The notes under the pieces are model-generated. The model was not told the DNA's origin. It did no database searches and saw only the letters and a program-made list of their open reading frames with translations. Both the position numbers and the translations under genes were made by a program. 64,000 nucleotides of DNA from Beroe forskalii (taxonomy: Eukaryota > Ctenophora > Nuda > Beroida > Beroidae). Positions 40,301 through 58,500 of the stretch are shown here, in pieces. Position 1 is the stretch's first letter, and every line of letters begins with the position of its first letter. Location of the stretch: NCBI GenBank assembly GCA_011033025.1, contig WFMF01000001.1, forward strand, positions 1,417,755-1,481,754, written 5' to 3'.

Positions 40301-43300
40301 TGATTTATTGTGATCAGGCCACCTCAACTTTCTGCGGCCTAATTTATCGCTATCTTCTGAATCTGACAACTTACCTGTTTAAAATCACGAGCAGGCTAAT
40401 AGGGGTTACCGAACTGCAAGATATGAACCACAGTTTCGTTGACATCTTAAGTGAGGGTTAATCGAGATATTTGTCGGTTGAGCTATTGTGTCATGAAGCA
40501 TTATTATATTCGATACTTATCCTAAGACCCAGATAAAATGTCTTTGAAAAGAGTGTCACAACTTCGCGGGAACCTGTCCTTTGTTTGTTGATAATCTAGA
40601 TTCTAGATCTACGGCGTTTATCAAAGTGGTTGATTATCTTAGATGCTCACATATTATGGTACATTCCGGCATGGGAAATCAATTCACGTACTACGTAGTT
40701 TTCTTTTTCTTACATTTTAATTAAGTTTTAAATAACAAGTTAAATTTATATCGGAACACATCTGATGACAAGGTTAACTAAGAATTTTTGGTATCTTTTG
40801 GATTTTCTGACCAGGGCGGGTGTGGTCCTCCGGAATTTGTACACTTGGGAACGAAAAATTGTATTGCCTTTCAACTCACCCGCCAAGTGTATCCCATGTC
40901 TGGTTGTGACGTCATCTCTCCTTCTGACGTCATCACTACCTCTGATGCCTGCATCGATCCCTCTGATGGTGACATCTCAACCCTCTCAGCACCTCCCTCC
41001 TCTATCTCTTCCGCGAGATCTGTACTGGTGTTTGGAACAGGGTTATCAGGGGTGGCAGATCTATCTTTCTTAGTTACTTTCTTAAGCTGTCCTCCCATAC
41101 TGACCTGAAACGATGTAAAGTTTCAACGATCAGCAACAATATAGGCACCAAGTTCGTGGAATTCCCAGGATATGCAATCTGCATCACAGGACATTTTAGA
41201 CATTTGGTTCAACCAAATCTGCCAGTCTAGCCTGATAAAAGGCATGTACTATGCTTACTTCCTGATTCATCCCACGGCCGCATGGATCTTACATACTATG
41301 ACCTGGCTCCTATAACATACCCTTGCGCTCTCGTTATTTCTAAGTTGTCCGCTCTTCAGTACCCATTCAATAGCTTTCCTCTTGTCAGAAAACTTCTTGG
41401 GCCTTCTTTTGAGAACACTCTGAAATGGTATAATTGAAATAAACTCTATTTCACAAGATAAAGCGATTACTAGAGTAGCCCAGACTAAGTCAGTATGCAA
41501 CATTCGAGTGGACAAAGTTGCTCAACGGCTTTTGGTAGTTCTAACTGTCCTTTATCAGAAAAATTAACTGCCCCTCCGTGAATCGACGTCATGGGGGTGC
41601 TAGGGCCACGCCCATTTTTCGCATGGTTAAACGGCTGTAACTCCGGTTCCTTTTGGAGTTGGGAGCAAACCAACCACCTTAAAATGACCGCAATGGACAC
41701 ATTATGTCAGGCGGATGATGGTTCTGAAGCCCTCAGACCTTTCGTTTTCGAGTTAGAGCCAAAAAACTGATTTTTCGTCACCCATGAGCCAACGCAAGGT
41801 AAAAATCGTAACTTTCATTCCTTTTGGAGTAGGGCATGAACCAACCAGGTTAAAATAAGCACTATCACCTAATTATTTGGGATAGATGATGGTTTTGAAG
41901 CCATACGACCTTCTATTTTGTAGAAAATGCACAAAAGAAGAGATTTAAGCAGCTACATAGCCATCGAACCTTATCGAAACTAATATATTTTTTTCTTCTC
42001 CACCAACTCCAGGACGTAAGGTCCATCCGTGAGCAACGGTTACTAGCCCTTCAGATCGTGTAGAATCGATGTAGCTTTAGCATGACATCTGATCTCTATA
42101 GTGACAAGTCGATATTGACCACGCCCTTTTTTAAGGTCACGCGCACGCTTGATATTTCATAACTTGGCTCAGGAAGGTCATAGGACGTAGATCCTCTCTT
42201 TTGAGCACCAACGAAGCTCAAAGACCATGTTTGTATACAACTTGTACCTTAGCATATATGCTTTAAAATGCTCAGAAAGAGAGTTATGGGCGAAAAGCTG
42301 ATTTTTTGGGGCACCAGCTGGATAGCAGAGTCGATTTTTGTATCTTGGCCCAGTAAAGTCGTAGAGAATTCGTTTTGGGCGCAAATGAACTGTAATAGCC
42401 ATGTTTATACACTATACAGTACAACTTGTTAATAAAAATATACCCTAAAATGTTCAGCAAGAGAGTTATGGCCGAAAAACTGATTTTTTGGGTATCCATA
42501 GGGTAAAGAGTAGGCGATTATTGTACCTTAGCGCAGGAAGATTTCAGAGAATTCACTTTGGGCGCAAACAGAGTGCAATTGTCATACTGTTTTATGTACA
42601 ACTTGTTAGTAAGCATATGCCCTTCAATGATCAGGAAGGGAGTTGTGGGCGAAAAACTGATTTTTGGGCACATGTGCTGCATCGTACCTACCTATAATTG
42701 TACCCATTGTCCGCTTCCAATGGGGACCCAATTTGACAACCTGCTGTAGGCAGCCCGTGGTCCAATCTAGTATTGAGTTCGATGTAGTGTAACCTGGAAC
42801 TGAAGGTAGATCAGGAATGCTTCTCAAGAGGATTCCAAGTTGAGGATGATCAAGGCAAGAGGTGGGATGTGAGTCTTGATTTGAATGCCTCGAAGGATGG
42901 AGGACTTAATTGTCTTTTGGAACAACATTCCACAAACTCTGACCAAGAATGGCAGATGAGTGACTGTACAGCGATTATGTGAGGGTTGTTGCCTTCGTAG
43001 AGTCTTTGTATTGGTCTTTAAGAGTATAAGAAGCCTGAAAGCCATACAGTTTATACTTTTACATACGAATTTCTGAACAATTTCTATATAAACATGGCCA
43101 TTAATGTTCTTTTAAGACCAAATCAAAGTTTTACATTCTGTACATCATTGAATGTCCTACTGGGAAGTGTGAATCTAAGACATCAAGAAACTGGAATCCA
43201 TCCAACATGCTTTTACATGCAACATCATTGGATATCCTTCTGAGAAAGGTTGAAGAGGCTTGGTCTGATGTCCCTCCAATGCATATTATGTGAAAGATCT

Positions 43301-46300
43301 GGCAGTGTGCTATACGAAACGACCTAGGATTCTTCATCGAATATGATCACCGTTGACTTGGAAGCTACTGTTTTAAAGTACACCCAATGAATAAAAAGGC
43401 AGGAGCCCTCGATGAAATCGATGTATGATCACTCATTTGCCGTGCTTGGTCTGAGGTTGTGGAATGTTGTTCCAAAAGACAATTAAGTCCTCCATCCTTC
43501 GAGACATTCAAATCAAGTCTGACATCCCACCTCTTGCCTTGACCATCCTCAACTTGGAAGCCTCTTGAGAAGCAATCCTGATCTATCTCAAGTTCCAGGT
43601 TACACTACATCGAACTCAAACTCAATACTAGATTGGACCACGGGCTGCCTACAGCAGGTTGTAAAATTGGGTCCTCATTGGGAGCGGACAATGGGTACAA
43701 TTATAGGAAGGTACTATGCACCACATGTGCCCAAAAATCAGTTTTTCACCCACAAATCCCTTCCTGATCATTGAAGGGCATATGCTTACTAACAAGTTGT
43801 ACGCAAAACAGTATGACAATTGCACTCCGTTTGCGCCAAAAGTAAAGTCTCTGAAATCTTCCTGGGCTAAGGTGCAATAATCACCTCCTCTTTGCCCTAT
43901 GGATACCCAAAACATCAGTTTTTCGCCCATATCTTGCTGAACATTTTAGGGTATATTTTTATTAACAAGTTGTACTGTATAAACATGGCTATTACAATTC
44001 ATTTGTGCCCAAAACGAATTCTCTACAACTTTACTGGGCCAAGATACAAAAATCGACTCTGCTATCCAGCTGGTGCCCCAAAAAATCAGCTTTTCGCCCA
44101 TAACTCTCTTTCTGAGCATATGCTAAGGTACAAGTTGTATACAAACATGGCCTTTGAGCTTCGTTGGTGCTCAAAAGAGAGGATCTACGTCCCATGACCT
44201 TCCTGAGCCAAGTTATGAAATATCAAGCGTGTGCGTGACCTTAAAAAAGGGCGTGGTCAATATCGACTTGTCACCATAGAGATCAGATGGCATGCTAAAG
44301 CTACATCGATTCTACACGATCTGAAGGGCTAGTAACCGTTGCTCACGGATGGACCTTACATCCTGGAGTTGGTGGAGAAGAAAAAAATATATATTAGTTT
44401 CGATAGGGTTCGATGGCTATGTAGCTGCTTAAATCTCTTTTTTTGTGCATTTTCTACAAAATAGAAGGTCGTATGGCTTCAAAACCATCATCTATCCCAA
44501 ATAATTAGGTGATAGCGGTTATTTTAACCTGGTTGGTTCATGCCCTACTCCAAAAGGAATGAAAGTTACGATTTTTACCTTGCGTTGGCTCGCGGGTGAC
44601 GAAAAATCATTTTTTGGCTCTAACTCGAAAACGAAAGGTCTGAGGGCTTCAGAACCATCATCCGCCTGACATAATGTGTCCATTGCGGTCATTTTAAGGT
44701 GGCTGGTTTGCTCCCAACTCCAAAAGGAACCGGAGTTACAGCCGTTTAACCATGCGAAAAATGGGCGTGGCCTAGCACCCCCATGACGTTGATTCACGGA
44801 AGGGCAGTTAATTTTTCTGATAAAGGACAGTTAGAACTACCAAAAACCGTTGAGCAACTTTGTCCACTCGAATGTTGCATACTGACTTAGTCTGGGCTAC
44901 TGGAGTAGATTCTATTTTCAGATCTTACTTTTCTTATTTCGAAGTAATTTAATAATATCCTTTTTTATCCTTTCATGGGTACTTCTGATTCCCTTCTAAG
45001 CTTCTAGGCTAGATTTCAGATATTCATGTGAAATGATTGCAACACATTTGATGATTTGAAAGTCATTATTCATTACTATATTATAATCCATGAGCTAAAG
45101 GACGTTTACTGATGGTTGGATATTTCACAGAAATAAATTTGAATTTAAAAGAGGTTCCAGGAATAGAATATAATTATCGAAATATACAGCCAACGTAGAA
45201 CCTACGTATTTATTGACAGGGTTCGGTGATATCTGATTCTCCTACGGATACGTTCACATGAGCCAATTGATCCGGAAGGATCAACCACCACGGCGGGTGA
45301 CGAAAAATCATTTTTTTGGCTCTAACTCGAAAACGAAAGGTCTGAGGGCTTCAGAACCATCATCCGCCTGACATAATGTGTCCATTGCGGTCATTTTAAG
45401 GTGACTGGTTTGCTCCCAACTCCAAAAGGAACCGGAGTTACAGCCGTTTAACCATGCGAAAAATGGGCGTGGCCCTAGCACCCTCCATGACGTTGATTCA
45501 CGGAAGGGCAGTTAATTTTTCTGATAAAGGACAGTTAGAACTACCAAAAACCGTTGAGCAACTTTGTTCACTCGAATGTTGCATACTGACTTAGTCTGGG
45601 CTACTGGAGTAGATTCTATTTTCAGATCTTACTTTTCTTATTTCGAAGTAATTTAATAATATCCTTTTTTATCCTTTCATGGGTACTTCTGATTCCCTTC
45701 TAAGCTTCTAGGCTAGATTTCAGATATTCATGTGAAATGATTGCAACACATTTGATGATTTGAAAGTCATTATTCATTACTATATTATAATCCATGAGCT
45801 AAAGGACGTTTACTGATGGTTGGATATTTCACAGAAATAAATTTGAATTTAAAAGAGGTTCCAGGAATAGAATATAATTATCGAAATATACAGCCAACGT
45901 AGAACCTACGTATTTATTGACAGGGTTCGGTGATATCTGATTCCCTATTTTAATTCGTGCGTAACACAACTATATCTCCAATGATCCACATACACGGGGT
46001 GTTTGACAAGGGTAAACGACTGTGACGTCATTATCAGGCGTCAGAATGGTGAATTGATGACGCTGAACCGCCTATGATTTTGTGAGGGTTACTATAAATG
46101 GGCACTGGGTATGATCCCTTTCCACCACGCTATCGGCAGCTGTTGCTAATGTAACGCTTGCTTCGCAAACGAGTATATTTATAAATATATATTTGAATAT
46201 TTATATATTATATGGTTTGCGTAGTTTGCGCGCTGTACTGTTTTATATGTAAACGAAAATGCGATAATTTCATAACTTTTTGTTCATAGTTATACAGACT

Positions 46301-49300
46301 GTTAAATGGCTTGTTCTAAATAATATATTTTAGCTACAAAATTTTCATTGATAATTGTTTTATAGATGATCGAAAGATTTTGCTGCAACTATCTTAGAGA
46401 CCCCCCTGTTATACTATATAAAGAACATAATATTTTGTGAGTTATAAATAAACTAAATGGATTAATATATTAACACATGCTCACGCTCATTCATTTGCAC
46501 ACAATATATCGTAGAAGTAATGCATTACGCTGAGCAAGACAAATATATAACGAGGTAGGCGGTTTGATTAGAATATTTTGATCAGATGTTCCTTACATAT
46601 TTTAAGAGCAATGGTATAAAGACGTTACTATATATTCATACCGCCTGTAATTTATTTTGTGCGTGGGTTGGGAGTTAACTGTTCACTTGGTGGGCGTTAA
46701 CGCTGTGTCTAGCGAATAATTATTTGGGATGGGCGACTGGGTGCTTTAAAAAGCATTATCTGATTATTGCACTCAGCAGTTTTCTGAAGAGACCGAGCAT
46801 TTTGTTGCTTAGGATTTTTAACATTCTTCATTTTATATCTTGACTTTTTAGTGGCTGATTTTCGAGATATAAATTGTTATATTCAATTCAGGATCTCGGT
46901 AATTAAACAAGTGCATATTCCAATCCTAGATGAGTCTATTTCGATTTCGTTCCCATGATTTTCAATAATTCTTGAATCTATTTTGGGGTTAAGTAAGATG
47001 AGAAGCAAAAGCAGAGATTCTAAAATCAATTTCTCAAGTTGTCAGATCTTGAGAGATTTGGGTATTATTTCAATTCAGCCATATCAAAGAAATAGTGCGA
47101 TTCATCGAGAGCTAAAAAATTTATAAATTACTGAGGCACATTCGCTACAGTGGCATATTCATTATCTGTTTTGGAAGCTTCCTTTGTAGCTTTCCTATCT
47201 GAATTGCTGGCAATTTAGAACTTCAATGCAACTTGAACTGTTATAATTTAATTTTCTACTTAATCTGGTTCTTTTTCTTGAAAGGAGTAATGTTTGACGC
47301 GTTTCGACTTCTAATAAATCTTCCCTAAAATAAATCAATCCCGGATCATACCCCAGCTCTGATGCCTCTATATTTCCAGGTTATGTCAATTAGCCAGACC
47401 GTGTGGAGTCCCTCAATCACGACGACCATCATCGGTCTAATCACCTGCCTCGTTTCCCTAATCTGTATCATGGGTAACATCCTCGCACTCCGTTACTTCC
47501 TAGCGCACCGCAAAACCACCTCCGCACTCAGCTACATCTTCCTAGCCAGTAACGACACCGCCACCCTCCTCCTCTTGGCACCTCTCCAACTTTCCCTGAT
47601 CCGGGGCGCCAGTCAACTGGCAGGGAGCCGCGCAGCGTGCTCCACGTGGGCTGTCCTGTGGTGCGTGACCCGCCGACTTAACAACTTCGTCGTTATGTGG
47701 GTGTTAGGGTGTCGGACAGTGTCGCTAATGTCGCACTTTAAGTACGTGCGGGCAGTGAATATCTACGGGCACATGGTGTCATACAGCCTGCTGCTCCTAC
47801 TCCAGGGACTAGTGCCCGTCATGAGGAATGGAGGATATGTGCAGGACCAGACTGTTGGGATCTGTGATTGGACTTATAACGTGCTTATTGTCAGCAATAG
47901 GACCGGGGTGCGCGCTGTCATGGTTACTGTTGATATGACGGAGTTTGGGGGTCCCGTAGCGGCGGATATTGTAATGATTGTCAGCGCAGTTGTCTTCATC
48001 AAATCAGGTTTGTAGGAGGGGGAGTTTTCTTTTAAAAATTTTACTTTTCAGTTTTACTTTGATTTGTGCTATTGATACCATCTTATCGACTAAAAAATGA
48101 GTCGTCATGTACAATATGGAATTCAATATTGTAGCTCTAGATCCTATTTGTCTGTCATAGTGAAACTGTAACAAGCCTATATATATAGATGGAATTAAAA
48201 CCTTTCCTAATGACGGAAGAAAGAAGCCCATTTTAGGACATATTCGTTCAATTGACAAATTTAAGTGGTTTTGTATTATGCTATTTTTATCACATCGGCA
48301 AAATCGGCCAGTTCAAAATGATATTAGTAATAAGTAATCTCTGATAGCATATAGATTGGAATCGGCGTGGAGTTAAATGGAGACAAATTAGAAATTTTTC
48401 AATCGCCCCATGAATTTCTCGCTAAATATGACCATGATTCATTTTCGATTATCGAACAATAAATCAGCGAATTTTCTCAAGAATTCAACACTTAGTATCC
48501 GAGCCGAAGTATTTTCACTTATAAACTATCCAACCAACCTGATAATTGCTCTGCTACATCCCTTGAATCAAAGAGTTTTATATCAATTAACCACCTGGCG
48601 AATAACCCACATTATAGTTTACTCCCAAATGCTTCATTAATATACGAGACTTTATAATTCGGAGTAACTGTGCGAGACAATAATGAGAAACTACCTAACT
48701 CTATCGCTCACCCCATTTTACAGACATAAAGTATGTGATTTATTATGCATGTTCTCGAGGTTTGTGGGGAAATCATAGAAGATCTCAATTCTCTTAACGT
48801 GAAATTTGAGCGAGATCAAAATATCAAGACATTAGCGCATATGATCACGGCGTAAGCGGAGACGATATTTATCATGTCTGTCGCTGAATTTCGACTGGAC
48901 AATGCCTTACAAAAATATCTTACATATTGTTCAGTTAAAAGTTGGATCAGTTGACATGTTCGAAAATTTTCGTTAAGATTGCACTGGACAAATTTATTTG
49001 TTTAATTTATCAACTCAGTGCTAAATTGCTAAACTACTACACCAAATTCAATATCATGAAAATTTCATGAGTTGATTTTAGTCGTTGAATTTCTTTGCCG
49101 TTTACCAAATTTTAAGGGAACTATTTACCGACTTGTAACTCAAATACTATCATATGAATGTGAGCACCCCGTACATAATAAAATAATCACTCGATGCACT
49201 TCCTCGAGTATTTAATGCTCAGAGGTGTCGTGAAATGAAATGAAGGAAATTGCCATTTAAACGATTTACTATAGCGATTCAAGGTTTGTAATTGATGCCT

Positions 49301-51407
49301 GATTTACTACAAAATCACGAATGAAATAAAATAGAATGGAATATAATGTCAGCATAGGAAACGGATGGAAAATAAATAACAAAGAAAGAAAAGCCAAATC
49401 ATTTTCTGTACCCTCAATATGATAACCGGGGCCTTGCATCCTTAATAACTCTTGCTTATCCTTTCAGGTGACCAAGTTCTGGGTAAAGTCCACATCTCTA
49501 GCGTCTCCACGAAGACCAAAGTAACAGTAACCATCCTAATGCTGGGCTCGTGTCACGTGCTCCTGAACATCCCCCAACTCGTGCAGCTGGTCATGTTCTA
49601 CTCCGCAAACTTCCACAACACCACCTCCCTCCCCCCACTCACAGACCACTCCCTCAAAGTGCTCGTTATCCTCATCTTCCCGCTCATTAACTGCGTGTCT
49701 AACATTGTGATCTACTTCGGCCGCATGAACACGCTCCGGCTGCAGGCCGTGCAGCTGCTCGGCCTGGCGTACATGCACTGGCAGGTATTCACGGACTGCG
49801 TGAAGTACATGTGCCATGAGAATAACCGAGTAGTGCCGTCTACTAGTGAGCAGAGCGAGTTGAACGGAGGAACGGGAGGGGGACGGAGGCAGATGAAGTG
49901 CATGCAGCTGTCAGAGATCATAGACTCGGAGTTAGCTAGTGAGGAGAAGAGGAGATATGTGGATTATTTGTATCAGGGAGAGGAAGAGGGAAGGGAGGAA
50001 GTCCGCTAGTTTGATAAGCGAAATTAGGACGAATTTAAGACTTGATCTATCATTATAAGTTGTACTCTATTGAGTATTGAAAAGGACGTTCAGTGAATCA
50101 TTGAATGATTGATGCAAAAACATGCCTTCTGTTATTAAGGATTCCAGATGCTTTTGGATAAACCTTTTGTAAGCTGTATCTGTTAGCTAAATCGTAGATA
50201 TGTCACTAAGCTTTAAAGATTCAAGTTATAAAATATAAATGACCCTCTACACTATAATTATGGCTTAAAATTTACTGTTGTTGAGAAATATTTTAGTCAG
50301 TAGTGAACGTATTAGTAAGTGTTATGTTCTAATGATCATTGGACATTGAATTCAACTTATATCAAAAAGTGATTTTTCTTTGAAATCCTTTTTATTGTGA
50401 AAACTTCATAAATTTTCTATTTCAAAGCTAGATGGTGAGTGAGTTAAATGACGTTAATTCTGACGATAAAGATAGCTTTATTACTCGTAAATTAGTCAGT
50501 AAGTCACAATCTCTTGGCGTCAGCAAGACTGATGTTACTAAAGAGTTTGAATAATTGACATTCTAGACTCTTAGTTCCTACTATTTTTTTTGCAATCAAT
50601 CAACATAAGAACGATTGTCATGTGAATGATAAGGCTTAGACTAATTGAATAACTAATGATATTTGGGCACAAGAGAATGTGAACTTATCATTCATATAAT
50701 AGAACTGAACTAATGATAGGCAATCTGGTGATGTCATCATCTTGGTTTACAATGGTGAATTGATGATATCATACAGTCTATTACCTTCCCACTCGCTGAC
50801 TGACCTGCATAGAGCTGAGTGCGTCCATTGCTGATCCCTCCACAACGTCTATAACAGCCACACCCCTAATGTTGGGTATTACATCCTGCGCTGCTACCCT
50901 GTGAGATGCTGTGATTAGGGCTGGCAAGAAGGTAAAATACGAGGAAATAGCAGTCTAATCGTACTTACACTTTATCATATTTTATCCTCGTATAATCATA
51001 CAATGAGATAGGGTCGAATGGACCCTCTCACTCGGTCACGGTTGGGTTTGAGTAACTCCTAGGGTAGCAGTTAGGGTATTGGTTAAAATTTTGGGTAACA
51101 GTTTAATAGGGTTTGGATTATGGCTGCAAGGAAGGTGTCGGACTACTCTCGAGAAGCATCAAACCACCTGAAACCCTTTTCACTCCACCAGTACTCACCG
51201 GATAGCCACGGCACCGCCCATGCTATGTCCCATGAGCACTACAGGGGGTTTGTCTTCAGGGTACATAGCACTCCACAACACCCCAACATCTCCTGCTAGA
51301 GTCTCTGCTGATAGGTCTGAGTCGTCTTCTGTCGTAGTGTCGCCATGTCCGCGTTGATCGAACGCAACGACCTGAAGATTTGCGCCGTAATACTGTGCGC
51401 GCAGTAG
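37315..51407 (-). CDS. PPME1: Protein phosphatase methylesterase 1, 5' end not found
   Basis: Six exons join in phase: 51407-51199, 50898-50805, 41419-41321, 41104-40880, 37774-37631 and 37467-37315, giving 307 residues. The enzyme demethylates the C-terminal Leu of PP2A catalytic subunit. The alpha/beta-hydrolase triad is complete: Ser in GHSMGG, Asp in VIDVVEGSAMDAL, His in GHSVHED. The blocks RRPKKFSDKRKAIEWVLKSG, MGYTWRV, SATEKYWPGWYSGMSKLFLS and KLLLLAGPDRLD match PPME1. The 75-codon fourth exon encodes the variable acidic Ser/Glu-rich linker. The last residues (ATGTFNQQSIRPCC) come from the adjacent minisatellite and replace the usual tail. About 90-100 N-terminal residues, including the HGGG oxyanion strand, are not seen. 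The 9.4-kb intron (41420-50804) holds a receptor gene on the other strand and large palindromic repeats. Confidence 0.9.
37775..40879. other. PPME1 intron, 3.1 kb
   Basis: I see no nested gene. A hairpin (ccacctggtgtcac with gtgtcaccaggtgg) at about 39348-39388 is followed by the 14-base palindrome gttgccatggcaac at about 39399-39412. The rest is AT-rich and unremarkable. Confidence 0.45.
39347..39412. repeat. Hairpin plus short palindrome in a PPME1 intron
   Basis: The arms ccacctggtgtcac and gtgtcaccaggtgg pair perfectly around a ~14-base loop. The perfect palindrome gttgccatggcaac follows within 15 bases. Confidence 0.75.
41473..44907. mobile_element. 3.4-kb foldback element with ~1.48-kb arms
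   Basis: The left arm (about 41473-42962) and right arm (about 43430-44907) are inverted copies, roughly 90-95% identical by eye, around a ~470-bp spacer. The outer ends read agtagcccagactaagtcag and its complement. Each arm carries modules of ~175-182 bp, marked by gttatgggcgaaaa-ctgatttt and gttttgggcgcaaa. The innermost ~200 bp of each arm resemble the 3' end of a LINE ORF2: a W-N-x-x-P-like segment, then fragments resembling an FK-x-x-L-K-T-H tail, with broken frames. No transposase is seen. The element lies in the 9.4-kb PPME1 intron, starting ~54 bp from an exon. Confidence 0.85.
42824..43560. pseudogene. Inverted LINE ORF2 3'-end fragments in the foldback core
   Basis: On the plus strand from about 43430, SFAVLGLRLWNVVPKDN resembles the ...RLWN-x-LP... 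motif near the C-terminus of CR1/L2/Jockey-type LINE reverse-transcriptase proteins. It stops a residue later, with FK/LK-type tail residues recoverable in other frames. The mirror copy on the minus strand (42824-43045) reads LVRVCGMLFQKTIKSSIL. The match is short and remembered, so the clade is not assigned. Confidence 0.4.
44593..45943. repeat. Direct tandem duplication of ~650 bp
   Basis: 44593-45239 and 45294-45943 are the same sequence with only a handful of differences. They share the outer ~310 bp of the foldback element's right arm plus ~335 bp of its right flank. A 54-bp spacer (45240-45293), starting tcctacggatacgttcac and containing gatccggaaggatcaacc, separates them and is not part of either copy. 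The near-identity means the duplication is very recent or an assembly overlap. Confidence 0.9.
45944..47361. other. PPME1 intron and upstream region of the receptor gene
   Basis: There is no coding exon that I can support. The stretch is AT-rich, with several runs such as tatatttataaatatatatt near 46155-46210. It should hold the promoter and perhaps a first exon of the receptor gene. Confidence 0.4.
47362..50009 (+). CDS. Rhodopsin-like seven-helix receptor, two exons
   Basis: Exons 47362-48007 and 49468-50009 join in phase 1 to give ~395 residues. Seven hydrophobic segments are visible: TM1 IIGLITCLVSLICIMGNIL with the class A GN motif; TM2 SYIFLASNDTATLLLLAPLQ with the expected N-D; TM3 from ~97 after a Cys, ending WVLGCRTVSLMSHF where DRY would be (CRT here); TM4 VSYSLLLLLQGLVPVM; TM5 AADIVMIVSAVVF; TM6 VTVTILMLGSCHVLLNIP; TM7 VLVILIFPLINCVSNIVIYF, a variant of NPxxY. 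The C-tail is long and acidic (EEEGREEVR). The ligand cannot be inferred; the altered DRY and NPxxY suggest a divergent lineage-specific receptor. An acceptor-like tatatttccag just before the second ATG means the start may lie in an upstream exon. The gene is nested in the 9.4-kb intron of PPME1 on the opposite strand. Confidence 0.75.
48008..49467 (+). other. Intron of the receptor gene
   Basis: The intron is 1460 bp, phase 1, GTTTGT...CTTTCAG. It interrupts the loop between TM5 and TM6. It is AT-rich and shows no repeat or gene. Confidence 0.6.
50985..51115. other. Telomere-like GGGTTTG/GGTTAG tract in a PPME1 intron
   Basis: Between the two upstream PPME1 exons lies a GT-rich tract with words such as ggttgggtttgag, gttagggtattgg and aatagggtttgg. 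It resembles the degenerate TTAGGG cores of the two MITEs on the left of the window, but clear inverted ends were not found. Confidence 0.35.
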
Positions 51408-51639
51408 CTGTGATCGCACGAATTTGCCAAATTTTGTCACAACTGTCAGGAATTTGCCAGTTTGTATTCGTAACTTGTATGTGTACTCAAAGGTCAAATA
51501 GAACAGGTCAAAAGGACGGGAAGAGTGGTCGTGGCAGATAAATTCCGCGGCTTCATAATTGCATAACATAGTCCCAATCATCAAGACAGAATACAGATGA
51601 GGGAGAAATAGTTCAAAGCAAATACACTTCTTTGTCAAA

Positions 51640-52377
51640 AAGGGAATAAGGAACTATAGTATAAACAATTGTTGTATTGATACAACATTCTCTTCATAAT
51701 TGCAAGATATCACGAAAAATGAAAAATAAATACTATGTACCAAAATCCAATCTCACTTAGCACTTCAATTCATTAAATGTTTCATTATTGCGGTTTCTTG
51801 ATTGAATGAATGTTCATAAAATCGATATTTAATAGTAAATTGTAGGCATGGGACCCCCCTTCAGGGGCCAGGCCCCCTAGTTTTCGAAAGGCCACCTCTG
51901 GAAAAATCTTAGGGGGGCTTGGCCCTACCTAGGATTTTTTCAAAAATTTGGGCGTCAACAGAAACTTCAAATTAACGTGTTCAGTTAGACAGAAATCTTC
52001 TTGGAATTAACCTTTTTTAGAGTTTAATCAATCAATAGTTATATAATGTATATTTCTGCAAAATAGCACGAAAATTAGGCTATGAACAATGAAAATTTGC
52101 TTATGTAAATTTCGGCCCCCTTAGATTTCAGGCCTTGCCCACCATTTGCCCCAGAAAGTGTGTAAATGGTATGTTTAGGTAAAAATTCGTTAAAACGACC
52201 TGTTAAGTATAATTGAAACAAAATAATCAAAGAAGAATCAATGGGTTCGATAATAATAGCTACCTAACTACTTTTCGTTAACGGAATGTCATAATACAAA
52301 TACGAAATATTCTAAAATCTGAAATCAGTGGAAAAGTATGAACGATGAAATGATTTTAGATTAGTAACCACAAAATG
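51640..52377. other. Gap between PPME1 and the J-protein gene
   Basis: At 51847-52155 lies a C/G-run-rich repeat (gggaccccccttcagg and gccccctagttttcg) resembling a dispersed element. The rest is AT-rich. I searched it for the missing PPME1 N-terminal exon and found none. Confidence 0.4.
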
Positions 52378-52383
52378 TTTATT
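52378..52383 (-). terminator. Candidate polyadenylation signal of the J-protein gene
   Basis: TTTATT on the plus strand gives AATAAA on the minus strand about 200 bases past the stop codon at 52581. Confidence 0.5.
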
Positions 52384-52580
52384 CTCATTGTATCGAAAAG
52401 GAAATCAAAAAAGTTCTATTTTCAATGTGAAAAACTTATTGTCTTCACTCTTCAAACGCCAACTCAATAATCAACTCGATCCCACTATGTATAGATAATG
52501 ATAATATTATGTACACGGTGATAAAACTTCACTTAAACTTGAACTCTTAAACTCTTAACAAATCTCATCTCGTCCCGTTT

Positions 52581-55500
52581 CTAGTCCCCGAAAAGTCTCC
52601 TGACACCGTATTTCTGTTCTGGAGTAAGGGACGGAGGAAAGACGACTTCGACAGTAACTAGCAGATCCCCGTAGTGTCCTGGCTGCTTGCTTATCGGCAT
52701 CCCGCATCCCTTGATCTTCCTCTTAGCTCCGGGACGGACTGTGTTATCCCCGATAGGTATGGGTATCTTCTGCGGGGGAGATGAGACGGTGAAAGGCAGG
52801 AATTGTTTTTGAATTGTCATGAAATGCAAAGAAGTATTGACGTAACAATCTGATTTCACTGAAATTTATGTTCAACTACTGAACTAATTTCTATCGATCG
52901 GCTGAATTTCGTATCTTTAATCGTACGCGCATGAAATATAACCCTCGAGGGCGCTAGCCCGAGTGGGATAATGGGATATACCTCTGTCATCTATATCCCC
53001 TCCCCAATAAGGCAATAACACTCAGCACCCACAACGCATGCCCACATTCTCCTGACCCGCAAGCCCCCATTCTCCTTACTCCCATGCCCCCATTCCCCTT
53101 ACCCCTTCCCATACATTTCAGCTCTATGATAATTACCTCTTGGGTTATTGCAGGGACTATTATCTCAAAGTTCCCACACAGCGCTTCCACCAGTGATATC
53201 TGGGCTGTGTACTGCAGGTCGTTGCCTGAAATGTAGAGGAGTAAATTCACCCAAAGAGGGAACCACACGGTGACAGTTCGAACTGCAGTTTTGTGTACGC
53301 GGTGTGAGTTTGTGCGGCGTAAAGACATATAAATAACATGTCTGTACGCCCGCGCACACCAAATTTCAGTTTGAACTACCACTTGAAGGAAAAGGGTACC
53401 TTATTGGCCTTTATTTAGCCGGCCTTTTTTTTCAACCGGCCCTTTTTTTAACCGGCCCTATGGACAAAAATCGAATCATTTTTGAACCATTTTAGCCGGC
53501 CCCTTGGACAAAATTTTTTGAAGTGGTTGTCAAAACAAAACAAAAAATAGCCACAAAAACCAACTTACACTAAAGTAAATTGTATCAAAAAACTCAAATA
53601 CTGGTCTAATATCATGATTTAGGTCATTATCTTTGTTATATTATGACGCTCAAATGAATTTGCCAGTACATAAGCCAAGTAAGAAAAGTTTCATCTGACC
53701 TCAATCAACTGGCCTTTAATTTAATCGGCCCCATTTTATATAAATTGCTAACCGGTACCAGATGAGTTCATATGTCAGCACTGGGTACTACCGAAAATTT
53801 TGATTTTTTCGATCATTTTTGGGGAATGAGCGGGCAAAGTTGATGTGATATTTCACGTCAAAGTTTGTTGTCCATTTTTTGGGAACCATACCGTTAAATG
53901 TTGACTTGCATGCATAGATTCAACATGTCCAAGATAAACCTAAATCTGTTTGAAAATCGCAATTGATTGGCGGTTGTTTATGGCCATGGCTACCCTAAGA
54001 AAAGTTGTTAGCCCGTCATTTTTGAGCTAAAGTGGGATTCCACATATAGTGCCTTTAGAAGTTTCATTATGTGCCAAAGGGCTGGGCATTATTATAGTTC
54101 ACATAATAAATAAGGCAAATTAACATTTTGTTGTAATAATAATATCATCCCACAACGAATAATTCTTACCGAGAACTAAATATACTATTAAATTTGTTAA
54201 GTTCATGTTCCCTGAATTTTGGATTTTTGCTTTTTTTTTTAACTATTTTTATACCCAAAATGCGTTTTGCTTTATTTTCAGCCTACGAATATCGTGAGAC
54301 TTTCAGCTTTGGCGCAACGAATGCAATCATCGAGTTTATATAACTAGAATAAACATATTTCTAAATCGCTCAGGAAAAAGTTACGGGCCAAAACTGATTT
54401 TTGTCGTTTCTGGCTTATAAAGGTGAAAAATCGTATATCTCAGCCCAGGAAAGTCGTAGAGACTTCGTTTTGGGCGCAAACGAATCGGAAACATCAAGTT
54501 TATTTGTAACTTGTGAATCAACATGTGTAAAATGCTCAGAAAAAAGTTATGGTCCAAAAACCATTTTATCGACCCAAAATATGGCCCTATCTCGGCCGAG
54601 GAGTATCATAGAGACTCGATTTTGGGCTCGAAATATTTCGAGGGGTCATATTTATATATGACTTGTGAACAAACATATAGCTTAAAACGCTCAGGAAACG
54701 AGCTTTGAGCCAAAAACTGTTCTAAGATCATTTTTGCCATCTCATAAAATTATGGTTTGGAAGGTTTGGCCCATAACCTGTTTCCTGAGCGTTTTGAGCT
54801 ATATGTTTGTTCACAAGTCATATATAAATATGACCCTCGAAATATTTCGAGCCCAAAATCGAGTCTTTATGATAATTCTCGGGCCGAGATAGGGCCATAT
54901 TTTGGGTCAATAAAATGGTTTTGGACCATAACTTTTTCTGAGCATTTTAGAGCACATGTTGATTCACAAGTTACAAATAAACTTGATGTTTCCGATCTGT
55001 TTGCGCCCAAAACGAAGTCTCTATGACTTTCCTGGGCTGAGATACGATTTTTTCACCTTTATAAGCCAGAAACGACAAAATCAGTTTTTGGCCCTTAACT
55101 TTTTCCTGAGCGATTTAGAGTATATGTTTGTTCACAAGTCACATATAAACTCGATGATTGCGATTCGTTTGCGCCCAAAACGAAGTCTCTACGATATTCG
55201 TAGGCTGTAAAATAGCCAAAACACGCATTTTTGGGCCTTAAAATGGTTATATCAAGAAATTAAAAGCAGAAAATCCAAAATTGGCTCCGGGAAGTTGAAC
55301 AGCATGAAATTTTACATCAAATGAAGTATATTAAGTTCTCGGTGGGAAATTATTCATTGTGGGATGATGAAATATTGTGTACAATTACAGCAAAATGTTA
55401 AATTTTGCCACTTATTTGATAATTATGTGAGGTATAACTGATGCCCGGCTTAGCCCTTTGGCACGCATGTAGAGCTTCTAAAGGCACACATTTCCATATG

Positions 55501-58500
55501 TGGAATCTCACTGTAGCTCAAAAAATGACGGAGCTAGCAAACTTTTTCTTAGAATTTGGTACCCTTACAAGAATGGCCATAACTCAGTCAATTTTGCGAT
55601 TTGACAAACGAACCTTTGGGTTTATATAGTGGACATGTTGATTTACATGCATGCAAATTTTCATGCATTAAACTGGTTTGGTTATTAAGCTATGGACTAA
55701 CAAACTTTGACAGTGAAATAGCATACCAACTTTGCCCGCTCATTCCCAAAAAATGTGTCCAAGAAAAATCAAAATTTTCCGGTAAAGTACCCCTTATATG
55801 CTGCAGAATGAGCATATGAACTCATCTGAGCGGGCCGGTCAACTTGAATTTATGTGTGCCCCCCCCTTAACCGGCCATTTTTTTAACCGGCCCTTTGGAC
55901 AAAAATCTCAAAGTCGTTTTTGTCCTTAAGGGCCGGTTAAATAAGGGCCAATAAGGTATATTCACCTATGTATGACACTGGTGCTTTTCGAATTTACCTG
56001 AAGTTCACCTGTATACCAGATACCTACCCTTTATAAACCGAATATTTCGACCGAATCATATAACATCGTTGACTCTCCATTCTATGGACTTATTGAAACT
56101 ATTCCAAAACTGCTGTTTCGGTTTTCACAGCTCGTCTGCTCGTGCTGTGTTTTGATTCAAAATTGTTTAAATAAAGCCCAAAAAGCGAAATACTGTAACA
56201 CGCCCGTGAAAAATCCTGTCAGGGATGAGCAGTAACACCCCTTATCAGTCCCAGAGATCCCCCAGAGATGTATACTCAAGAAAATTCGATACTTCAAGCA
56301 GGAACTAGCCGAATCAAGCCGAAACAAGCGGAAAAACCCGAAACCACCTCGAACCAACCCAGAAACCTCCCCGAATTAAGCCAAGACTATTCGAAAAGCC
56401 GAAACAAGCGAATCAACCCGAAACAAGTGGAAACAAGCGAATCAACCCGAAACTCCGAAATAAGCAGTTTTGGGATAGGATCTATTCGGGTTGATTCGCT
56501 TGTTTAGGGCTGATTCGCTTGTTTGAGGTTAATTCGCTTGTTTTGGATCGTTTCGGCTTGATTCGGGGAGGTTTTTGGGTTTGGTGCGGGGTGGTTGCGG
56601 GTTGTTCCACTTGTTTCAGCTCGATTGGACCAGTTCCTGTTTGTAGTATCAGCGGCTCAGGAAACTTATTTATTTTGATACTCAAGAAAACAGCAGTGTT
56701 ATAATGCGCAAAAATTTATTTGTTGACGAGAAAACTATTTATTAACATAGTTGGAACTTTCAGACCTAATTAGTTTACAGAGTTTCCCAATTTCGTGCCA
56801 AATGTAAATAAAATAATTTAATGCTGATTAACTTATTTAACAGGTTGGATTATGGGTAACCAATTACAATGTTGTGAAAATGAAACCACGAATATTATAT
56901 CTTTAAATATTATAATACTCAACAGTAGTTAAATACTTATAACAAAAATCCAAATTTCCAAAAACCCCAAATATCGTGTGGAAATAAATTTAATTTTAAA
57001 CGATTTCAAATTTCAGTCCATCGTCCGTATTCAAATTCAGTCCATAAATTCAAGAGAAATTCTTGCTGAAACAGCAAGAAAATCTCAGTTTACGATGTCA
57101 TCACCATGACATCACCATGACATCACTAGGACATCACCATGACATCATTCCTCTCATTCCACTCTCCGTCTAGTGCATATCAGCCATGTGGGTCTCAGGG
57201 AGGAGTTCAGTGATGTGAGGAACACAAGGTCTGATGTACTCGCCAGTCTTGGATTCGTTAGACTTGAACCAACGTCGGATGGGACAAATTCATTCCGATC
57301 CGTAAACCACCAACAATTCTAGTTTAACTTTCCTCCCCTAAACATAAACCCCTTCCTTCGAAATGAAGCCTACAAGGCGGCGGGCGACCTGGTTCCCAAG
57401 CGCCTCGTAATAAGAATTGCCTGCTTTAGAGCAATAACGCGTCTCTGATCCCACAAGACTTTGAATTTAAAAGCAGACGAGCAGTAGTAACAATTTATCA
57501 GGTAGCTTTCAGTAGTGAGATGAACTTAGTTATATAAATAACCAACCCTTACAAGGAATTTCTCTACCTGAATACCTGACCTGCAACCTGTTTTTAGTGA
57601 TATCCGACATATCGGAGTCTCCTAAGTCACTTAAGGTTTAAAAATGGGTGTGATGAATCGCGCATCCGGAACCTAAAATTACTACAGTGTCAAAACCTGT
57701 GCTTTCATTTTGTGAACCTTTTTAATAACCGTTTGTCCTTTTGAACCTCTATCTCTCTATGTACCTGCAATAGATCTTAAAACACCTGCTTACCATCTCG
57801 CTTGTAGATTGCATGGGGTTTCTCCTCCACAATAAAGACTATGTCCTGCGGCTTCTTACCCGGGTAAACGTCTCCCTGTGAGAGACAGTGAGACTGTGAG
57901 ACAATGAGAGGGTTTATAAACTTTATACAATCAAATTTGAGGTAGATGTCTTACTTTAATTGTGCTCCCGGCATATTGGTCCTCGTGGCTTCCTGGGGAG
58001 GTACGGGACTCGTTCCCATTCACAGTAGCCCTGGCAACAGGGACCTCCCAGCGGGAGGTCCCGTGCTGGGGACTATGTTTGGATCTCTCGTAGATCCATC
58101 CCCCGTTTAGTAGTACTTCCTATAATTCCATTTGAAGTTCATTATCATCAAATTAATCCTGTTTCATTTCTACTGCGATCTGAAGTTAGGTCAGAGAGCA
58201 CATATCAGACCATTTTCATTGGCACCAGTACATAAGACCTGTTTCCATGACACCAGTACATCAAACTATGTTTCCTTGACACCAGTACATCAAACCATGT
58301 TTCCTTGACACCAGTACATCAGACCATTTTTCCTTGACAGCAGTGCATCAGACCATGTTTATTTGCCACCAGTTCAAAAGACCTATTTCCTTGACATCAG
58401 TCCTACCAGTATATCAGACCATGTTACCTTGACACCAGTACATAAGACCTGTTTCCTTGACACCAGTGTATCAGACCGTGTTCGTTGACACCAGTTCGCT

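Follow-up and report, generated by a model that had tools for sequence, protein, structure and literature searches.

Foldback transposons of Beroe forskalii with a common arm module behind different ends

Do the ends and the bodies of transposons evolve as separate, exchangeable parts? A shared internal module allows this to be asked directly in a 64,000-nucleotide stretch of the ctenophore Beroe forskalii (assembly GCA_011033025.1, contig WFMF01000001.1, positions 1,417,755 to 1,481,754, forward strand; hereafter the window), which contains two long foldback elements, here termed F1 and F2. A preliminary description of the window had regarded them as one family with different ends, which grows by duplication of its modules, propagates as palindromes and encodes no protein; it had also proposed a genome search with the module, a classing of ends and target sites, and a search for an autonomous partner with the same ends. 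Our searches covered a genome of 216 Mb in 1134 contigs. F1 and F2 have neither terminal inverted repeats (TIRs) nor target site in common, F1 being inserted at TA and F2 at TTAA, and what they share is their internal modules. Since the module array is combined with three or more sets of ends, and with TA as well as TTAA target sites, F1 and F2 do not constitute a single family. The wider part of the original proposal is borne out, as a module-sharing foldback group exists genome-wide, represented by 987 near-exact places of the module core and by 107 ends of F1 type and 45 of F2 type.

The shared module and the two elements

The shared module is ~165-175 bp long. In F1 and F2 alike, each arm contains three modules, two complete and one truncated, mirrored in the opposite arm (nhmmer), in agreement with the three or so modules per arm originally described. 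Circularity was avoided by building one profile from the F1 modules alone and another from the F2 modules alone. The F1-only profile scored up to 75.5 bits against F2, as opposed to 9.1 for the best of 200 Markov shuffles, and the F2-only profile scored up to 68.6 bits against F1 (best shuffle, 8.2), so the shared modules survive a non-circular comparison. Elements on contigs C66 and C331 were matched by both profiles. The 987 core places (471 forward, 516 reverse; reversed control, 0) were found with a 17-base query allowing 1 mismatch, and a 25-base module pattern gave 0 exact-match stretches in viral contigs. Among the 100 core places listed of the 987, neighbours on the same strand lie 161-179 bp apart in 28/41 cases and 335-346 bp apart in 7 more. 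Clustering of these places at gaps below 12 kb yielded 36 clusters, of which 11 are single places, 4 one-strand and 21 both-strand; within the mixed-strand group 19 are strictly facing, and of the remaining two, one bridges a pair of adjacent elements and the other is oriented outward.

F1 lies only a few bases from the limits first given for it (41473-44907). Its features are as follows, with modules placed by nhmmer and a strand named where one is assigned:

41468-41469: TA target-site copy to the left of F1
41470-44905: F1 foldback element, 3436 bp, with ends CTAGAGTAGCCC... and ...GGGCTACTGGAG, TA on both sides and inverted arm blocks of 91-99%
41470-41620, plus strand: terminal block of ~150 bp, ~85-88% identical in two C331 elements and one C598 element with different interiors
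42155-42273, plus strand: module 1, outer end truncated
42282-42455, plus strand: module 2
42464-42632, plus strand: module 3
42977-43415: centre, 439 bases, without a mirror partner
43766-43933, minus strand: right-arm module 3
43939-44105, minus strand: right-arm module 2
44113-44220, minus strand: right-arm module 1, truncated
44906-44907: TA target-site copy to the right of F1

Inverted repeats bear out the mirrored long arms reported at both places. In F1 the longer blocks around the centre are 91-99% identical, the inner arms next to the centre (42773-42976 and 43416-43619) being mirror images at 91%; in one frame these inner arms may resemble the C-terminal tail of a long interspersed nuclear element (LINE) reverse transcriptase. 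The F1-type ends (50 forward, 57 reverse; reversed control, 0) were located genome-wide with a near-terminal 33-mer at up to 3 mismatches, and 100 of the 107 are listed. TA precedes 41/43 distinct F1-type ends at filled sites in the fetched loci. In the outer arm of the window copy (41620-42000), the phrase TTCCTTTTGGAGT..GGG...AACCAACC is present twice and may represent a diverged module-like unit. At 44592-45947 a ~700-bp unit, comprising the outer ~314 bp of the right arm plus flank, is tandemly duplicated at 99% identity, which accounts for a second F1 right end at 45596-45609.

The second element had been drawn as a single palindrome from 53397 to 55958. This was rejected, since both positions are the ends of an outer element of ~434 bp with inverted ends TACCTTATTGGCC; the ends of F1 and F2 do differ, as had been claimed, while those cited for the second element are its host's. 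Eight genome copies of the host lack any interruption at the F2 site, a count that leaves out a ninth, more diverged copy on C558, and F2 is therefore a nested insertion. The two matched pieces of those eight copies meet with an exact 3-base overlap in 6/8, a 1-base gap in 1/8 and a 10-base overlap in 1/8. The features of this locus are listed in the same manner:

53397-53738: left portion of the host, a TIR element (TACCTTATTGGCC...) that is uninterrupted in 8 other genome copies
~53739-55866: F2 foldback, left terminus ~13 bases short
54276-54371, plus strand: module 1, truncated
54379-54537, plus strand: module 2
54545-54692, plus strand: module 3
54787-54933, minus strand: right-arm module 3
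54940-55100, minus strand: right-arm module 2
55108-55241, minus strand: right-arm module 1
55867-55870: TTAA target site at the right end of F2, TTAA being present at 23/23 matched F2-type ends
55867-55958: right portion of the host, starting with the four bases of the TTAA target site

The loss of ~13 bases at the left terminus is a reading against other F2 ends, and the best matches of the window copy to other F2 arms are 81% for the outer left arm and 97% for the right arm. Elsewhere, F2 copies begin with TTAA, a run of G and then CACAC in 11 of the 12 ends displayed, the twelfth (the right end at locus L016) having a diverged form further in. The 23 distinct F2-type ends in the fetched loci were matched with a pattern that did not itself contain TTAA. 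The F2 copy on C111 (L018) has flanks similar to the ~434-bp host element, and F2 may consequently have entered this host twice. Adjoining the host in the window, units of the GAAACAAGCGAATCAACCC type form a short, imperfect inverted repeat at 56396-56559.

Module arrays, ends and arms across the genome

Other elements place the same modules behind further ends. Two elements on C331 and one on C598 carry F1-type ends, and only the terminal ~150 bp and the modules are common to them and F1. The C66 element apparently ends in TAGTCA[A/G]AGACC with TA, as read from one copy, and each of its arms matches the module six times, in several cases only in part. In F1, C66, C331, C598 and C802, the truncated first module is immediately preceded on its outer side by a block of the form GCCACGCCC[A/T]TTTTT. 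In a tree of 73 of the 74 modules extracted (one of fewer than 90 bases was dropped), F1 and F2 modules group by position across copies, which suggests that fixation of the arrays preceded the spread of the copies. Support is 99/92 for a grouping of C66 modules 1-4 with a further C66 module, in which left-arm modules pair with their right-arm counterparts; a single fork (94/74) takes in every F2 module together with a C66 module. Judged from this tree, the growth by module duplication originally envisaged for F1 and F2 appears clear in C66 alone among the families examined. At C802, F2-type ends lie 11.6 kb apart and an F1-like end with modules stands at each edge of the interior; such F1-type ends and modules within F2-type arms provide a plausible route for the exchange of ends. 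The same C802 element was considered as an autonomous copy and rejected, its interior (L067, C802:1446200-1454900) being a 52-bp tandem array, in which a 51-base reference matches 111 copies at 60% or above and no stop-to-stop frame is longer than 121 aa.

The F1-type ends exhibit a fixed polarity. The 43 distinct ends in the fetched loci comprise 21 of TA-CTAGAG, 20 of TA-CTCCAG, one truncated and one degenerate, and 16/16 facing pairs consist of one CTAGAG and one CTCCAG end; 8 of these pairs share one locus, and three of the other eight (C248, C330 and C581) span more than 6 kb and may not be single simple elements. Two adjacent columns fully split the sides in 41 ends, the next highest column displayed (those below 0.08 bit being omitted) carrying 0.083 bit, and lineage variants 14-17 bases from the tip are equally frequent on both sides. 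Such one-of-each polarity is better explained by the movement of whole elements than by the copying of single arms, and propagation as palindromes is accordingly not the best reading of these elements. The two-base polarity within largely homogenised arms constitutes a built-in marker for distinguishing whole-element transposition from arm copying.

The two arms of an F1 element are coupled on average, not in every element. Among ten two-armed F1 elements, the mean inter-arm distance is 0.032 as opposed to 0.083 when permuted (0/20000 as low), and the arms are mutually nearest in 6/10 and starred as sister pairs in 6/10. Arms within one element differ by 0.5-6.6%, while between elements the same-side and opposite-side distances are equal (0.087, 0.085 and 0.088).

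Origin and movement of the elements

Taken together, the most satisfactory joint explanation, which we consider probable, is that F1 and F2 are non-autonomous foldbacks with a shared ancestral array and swapped ends, which move as whole elements and are homogenised within each element. They would be non-autonomous cut-and-paste DNA transposons moved in trans. Tc1/mariner and pogo elements insert at TA, as do F1 and apparently C66, and the Kolobok superfamily inserts at TTAA, as does F2. From these target sites, F1 is probably moved by a transposase of the Tc1/mariner-pogo group and F2 by one of piggyBac or Kolobok type. The arms would derive from one ancestral array, consisting of a truncated module followed by full modules of ~172 bp that face inward, and arms and ends would have recombined between families, for example when one foldback is nested within another, as at C802. 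Following transposition of the whole element, its two arms would from time to time be homogenised again, presumably through gene conversion between the halves of the palindrome. A common module with unrelated ends, which point to two different moving enzymes, suggests that transposon parts have been traded between families. It is also possible, and we offer this more tentatively, that the ~172-bp array is a tradable arm cassette of at least two unrelated systems (TA and TTAA), in which ends are swapped by nested or neighbouring recombination while the arms are kept, homogenisation extends to ~14 bases from the tip, and two near-tip bases maintain the polarity that the transposase needs.

Several observations weigh against this explanation. 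In C861, C1005 and C814 the partner is nearest for neither arm, and in C1126 it is nearest for just one of the two; both arms of C861 and of C1005 lie nearest to the same-side arm of another element, which is the expectation for independent arms. In F2, only 1/8 arm pairs form a supported sister pair. The F1 and F2 loci were fetched by similarity and their tallies are not random samples, and short-read mis-polishing of repeated arms could mimic homogenisation. The stretch outside the F2 array is only weakly similar to the GCCACGCCC block region, which leaves room for a separate capture of modules by F2. The search for an autonomous partner was likewise unfavourable. Of the 15 piggyBac matches (PF13843), 0 lie within 100 kb of an F2-type end (45 ends considered), and no TTAA-flanked TIRs (11 of 16 bases) were found in the 3 of these 15 loci fetched. 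Among the 100 F1-type ends listed of 107, none shares a contig with any of 5 DDE_3 matches, and 1 of 22 DDE_1 matches lies within 10 kb of an end. The piggyBac, DDE_3 and DDE_1 searches thus established no autonomous partner for F1 or F2.

An array behind different ends could mean either that ends and arms have recombined or that modules were captured more than once. The latter seems unlikely to us; in that case different transposons would each have taken up a dispersed satellite or other independent repeat, and its presence in F1 and F2 would carry no information on a shared ancestry of the arms. Separate capture would account for the grouping of modules largely by family and position (99/92 for C66 and 94/74 for the F2 fork), and other tandem repeats are also carried, such as the 52-bp satellite within C802; Helentrons with satellite-like repeats have also been reported in an oyster, according to the portion of that report consulted (PMC7492417). 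On the other hand, a facing arrangement in 19/21 mixed-strand clusters speaks against independent capture, notwithstanding the 11 single places and 4 one-strand clusters, and F1, C66 and C331/C598 share both the block that flanks the array on its outer side and a first module truncated in a similar way. We regard as more improbable still that the homogeneity and mirroring of the arms are partly artefacts of assembling and polishing long palindromes. Such palindromes may indeed disturb assembly: homopolymers are strongly distorted at C396:42150-42950 (L072), on a contig with an F1 arm, where inflation lowers the compressed length ratio to 0.43 from 0.69-0.72 in five other loci, and the ~700-bp unit at the right edge of F1 is duplicated at 99%. 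Arms within one F1 element nevertheless remain 0.5-6.6% apart, the two side-specific bases are never mixed in 41 ends, and elements of this anatomy stand in different flanking sequence on many contigs.

As for the mover of F1, the candidate is a 397-aa HTH_psq and DDE_1 stretch (C396:45695-46885) within a 733-aa stop-free frame, which lies ~2 kb inward of the F1 arm at C396:48872-49829. That a pogo-like element with a DDE_1 transposase moves F1, the C396 locus being the transposase-bearing copy, is a proposition we find doubtful. The TA target suits transposases of the pogo and Tc1 type, and the compressed sequence of C396:42150-42950, on the far side of the gene, matches the F1-type locus L051 (E 6e-10; best reversed control, 0.002). 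A second comparison was less favourable, the C396 stretch scoring 72.6 against L051, where the maximum of 200 controls was 70.6, and 56.9 against the window F1, below the control mean of 59.5. Moreover, a second F1 end was looked for at the C396 locus and not found, none of the listed F1 ends is close to the nearest relatives of the gene, which are 39-54% identical and lie on C714, C872 and C447, and the gene may be a chance neighbour or a nested insertion. The pogo-like gene is consequently an unreplicated lead, with no secure link to F1. The homopolymer inflation at L072 is possibly a read-error signature of foldback DNA.

In line with the preliminary description, in which neither copy encodes a protein, no open reading frame (ORF) of at least 150 aa with a start codon was found in the window copies of F1 and F2. 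Stop-to-stop frames reach at most 163 aa in three elements with F1 ends and in one C66 element, each taken with its flanks. Elsewhere in the window, two ORFs match the uracil-DNA-glycosylase and galactosyltransferase families, and Rfam and tRNA searches of the window gave 0 matches.

Comparison with known foldback systems

Foldbacks with repetitive arms include FB of Drosophila, and the Mutator-type target sites of FB and Tm1 are ~9 bp, while that of Galileo is ~7 bp and thus neither TA nor TTAA. The displayed ends of F1 and F2 share only TA and TTAA, respectively, in place of the target-site duplications of 8-11 bp in Mutator/MULE elements and 7-8 bp in the P superfamily; with just 2 (F1) and 4 (F2) shared flanking bases, membership of either group was rejected. 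Nematode Tm1, a Mutator-type element, is like F1 and F2 a foldback with repetitive arms, as far as the excerpted account goes. Unlike Tc1/mariner and pogo elements, F1 has arms of more than 1 kb with modules, and F2 begins with GGGGGGG, whereas piggyBac ends are usually CCC. The TTAA target of F2 is that of piggyBac in the part of the source consulted (PMC7351741).

The nearest system in anatomy, judging from the available portion of its description (PMC4079207), is Tetris of Drosophila virilis, an apparently non-autonomous foldback with a variable middle. Like F1 and F2, it has long arms in which a terminal domain is followed by tandem repeats (~220 bp in Tetris) of varying number, and no transposase was found for it. 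Its target sites are 8-10 bp, for which Mutator has been suggested, in contrast to the TA and TTAA observed here, and the two-base end polarity of F1 is absent from that portion of the description. Tetris and DAIBAM have common ends, whereas F1 and F2 represent the reverse case of common inner modules with different ends. Galileo, in the sections of its description consulted (PMC2775673), resembles F1 in its long, internally repetitive arms; the TIRs of two copies are more than 99% identical within a copy and differ by ~7% between copies, reminiscent of the average coupling of F1 arms. It differs from F1 and F2 in belonging to the P superfamily with a known transposase, and, as a foldback-like element, it has generated natural inversions in Drosophila.

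Within the limited literature covered, which is weak evidence of absence, no foldback families have been reported with a common body and different ends. The foldbacks described there have one set of ends with their own repetitive arms, and here one module occurs with different ends and different targets. In their architecture, F1 and F2 are thus a variant of what is already known from Tetris and Galileo.

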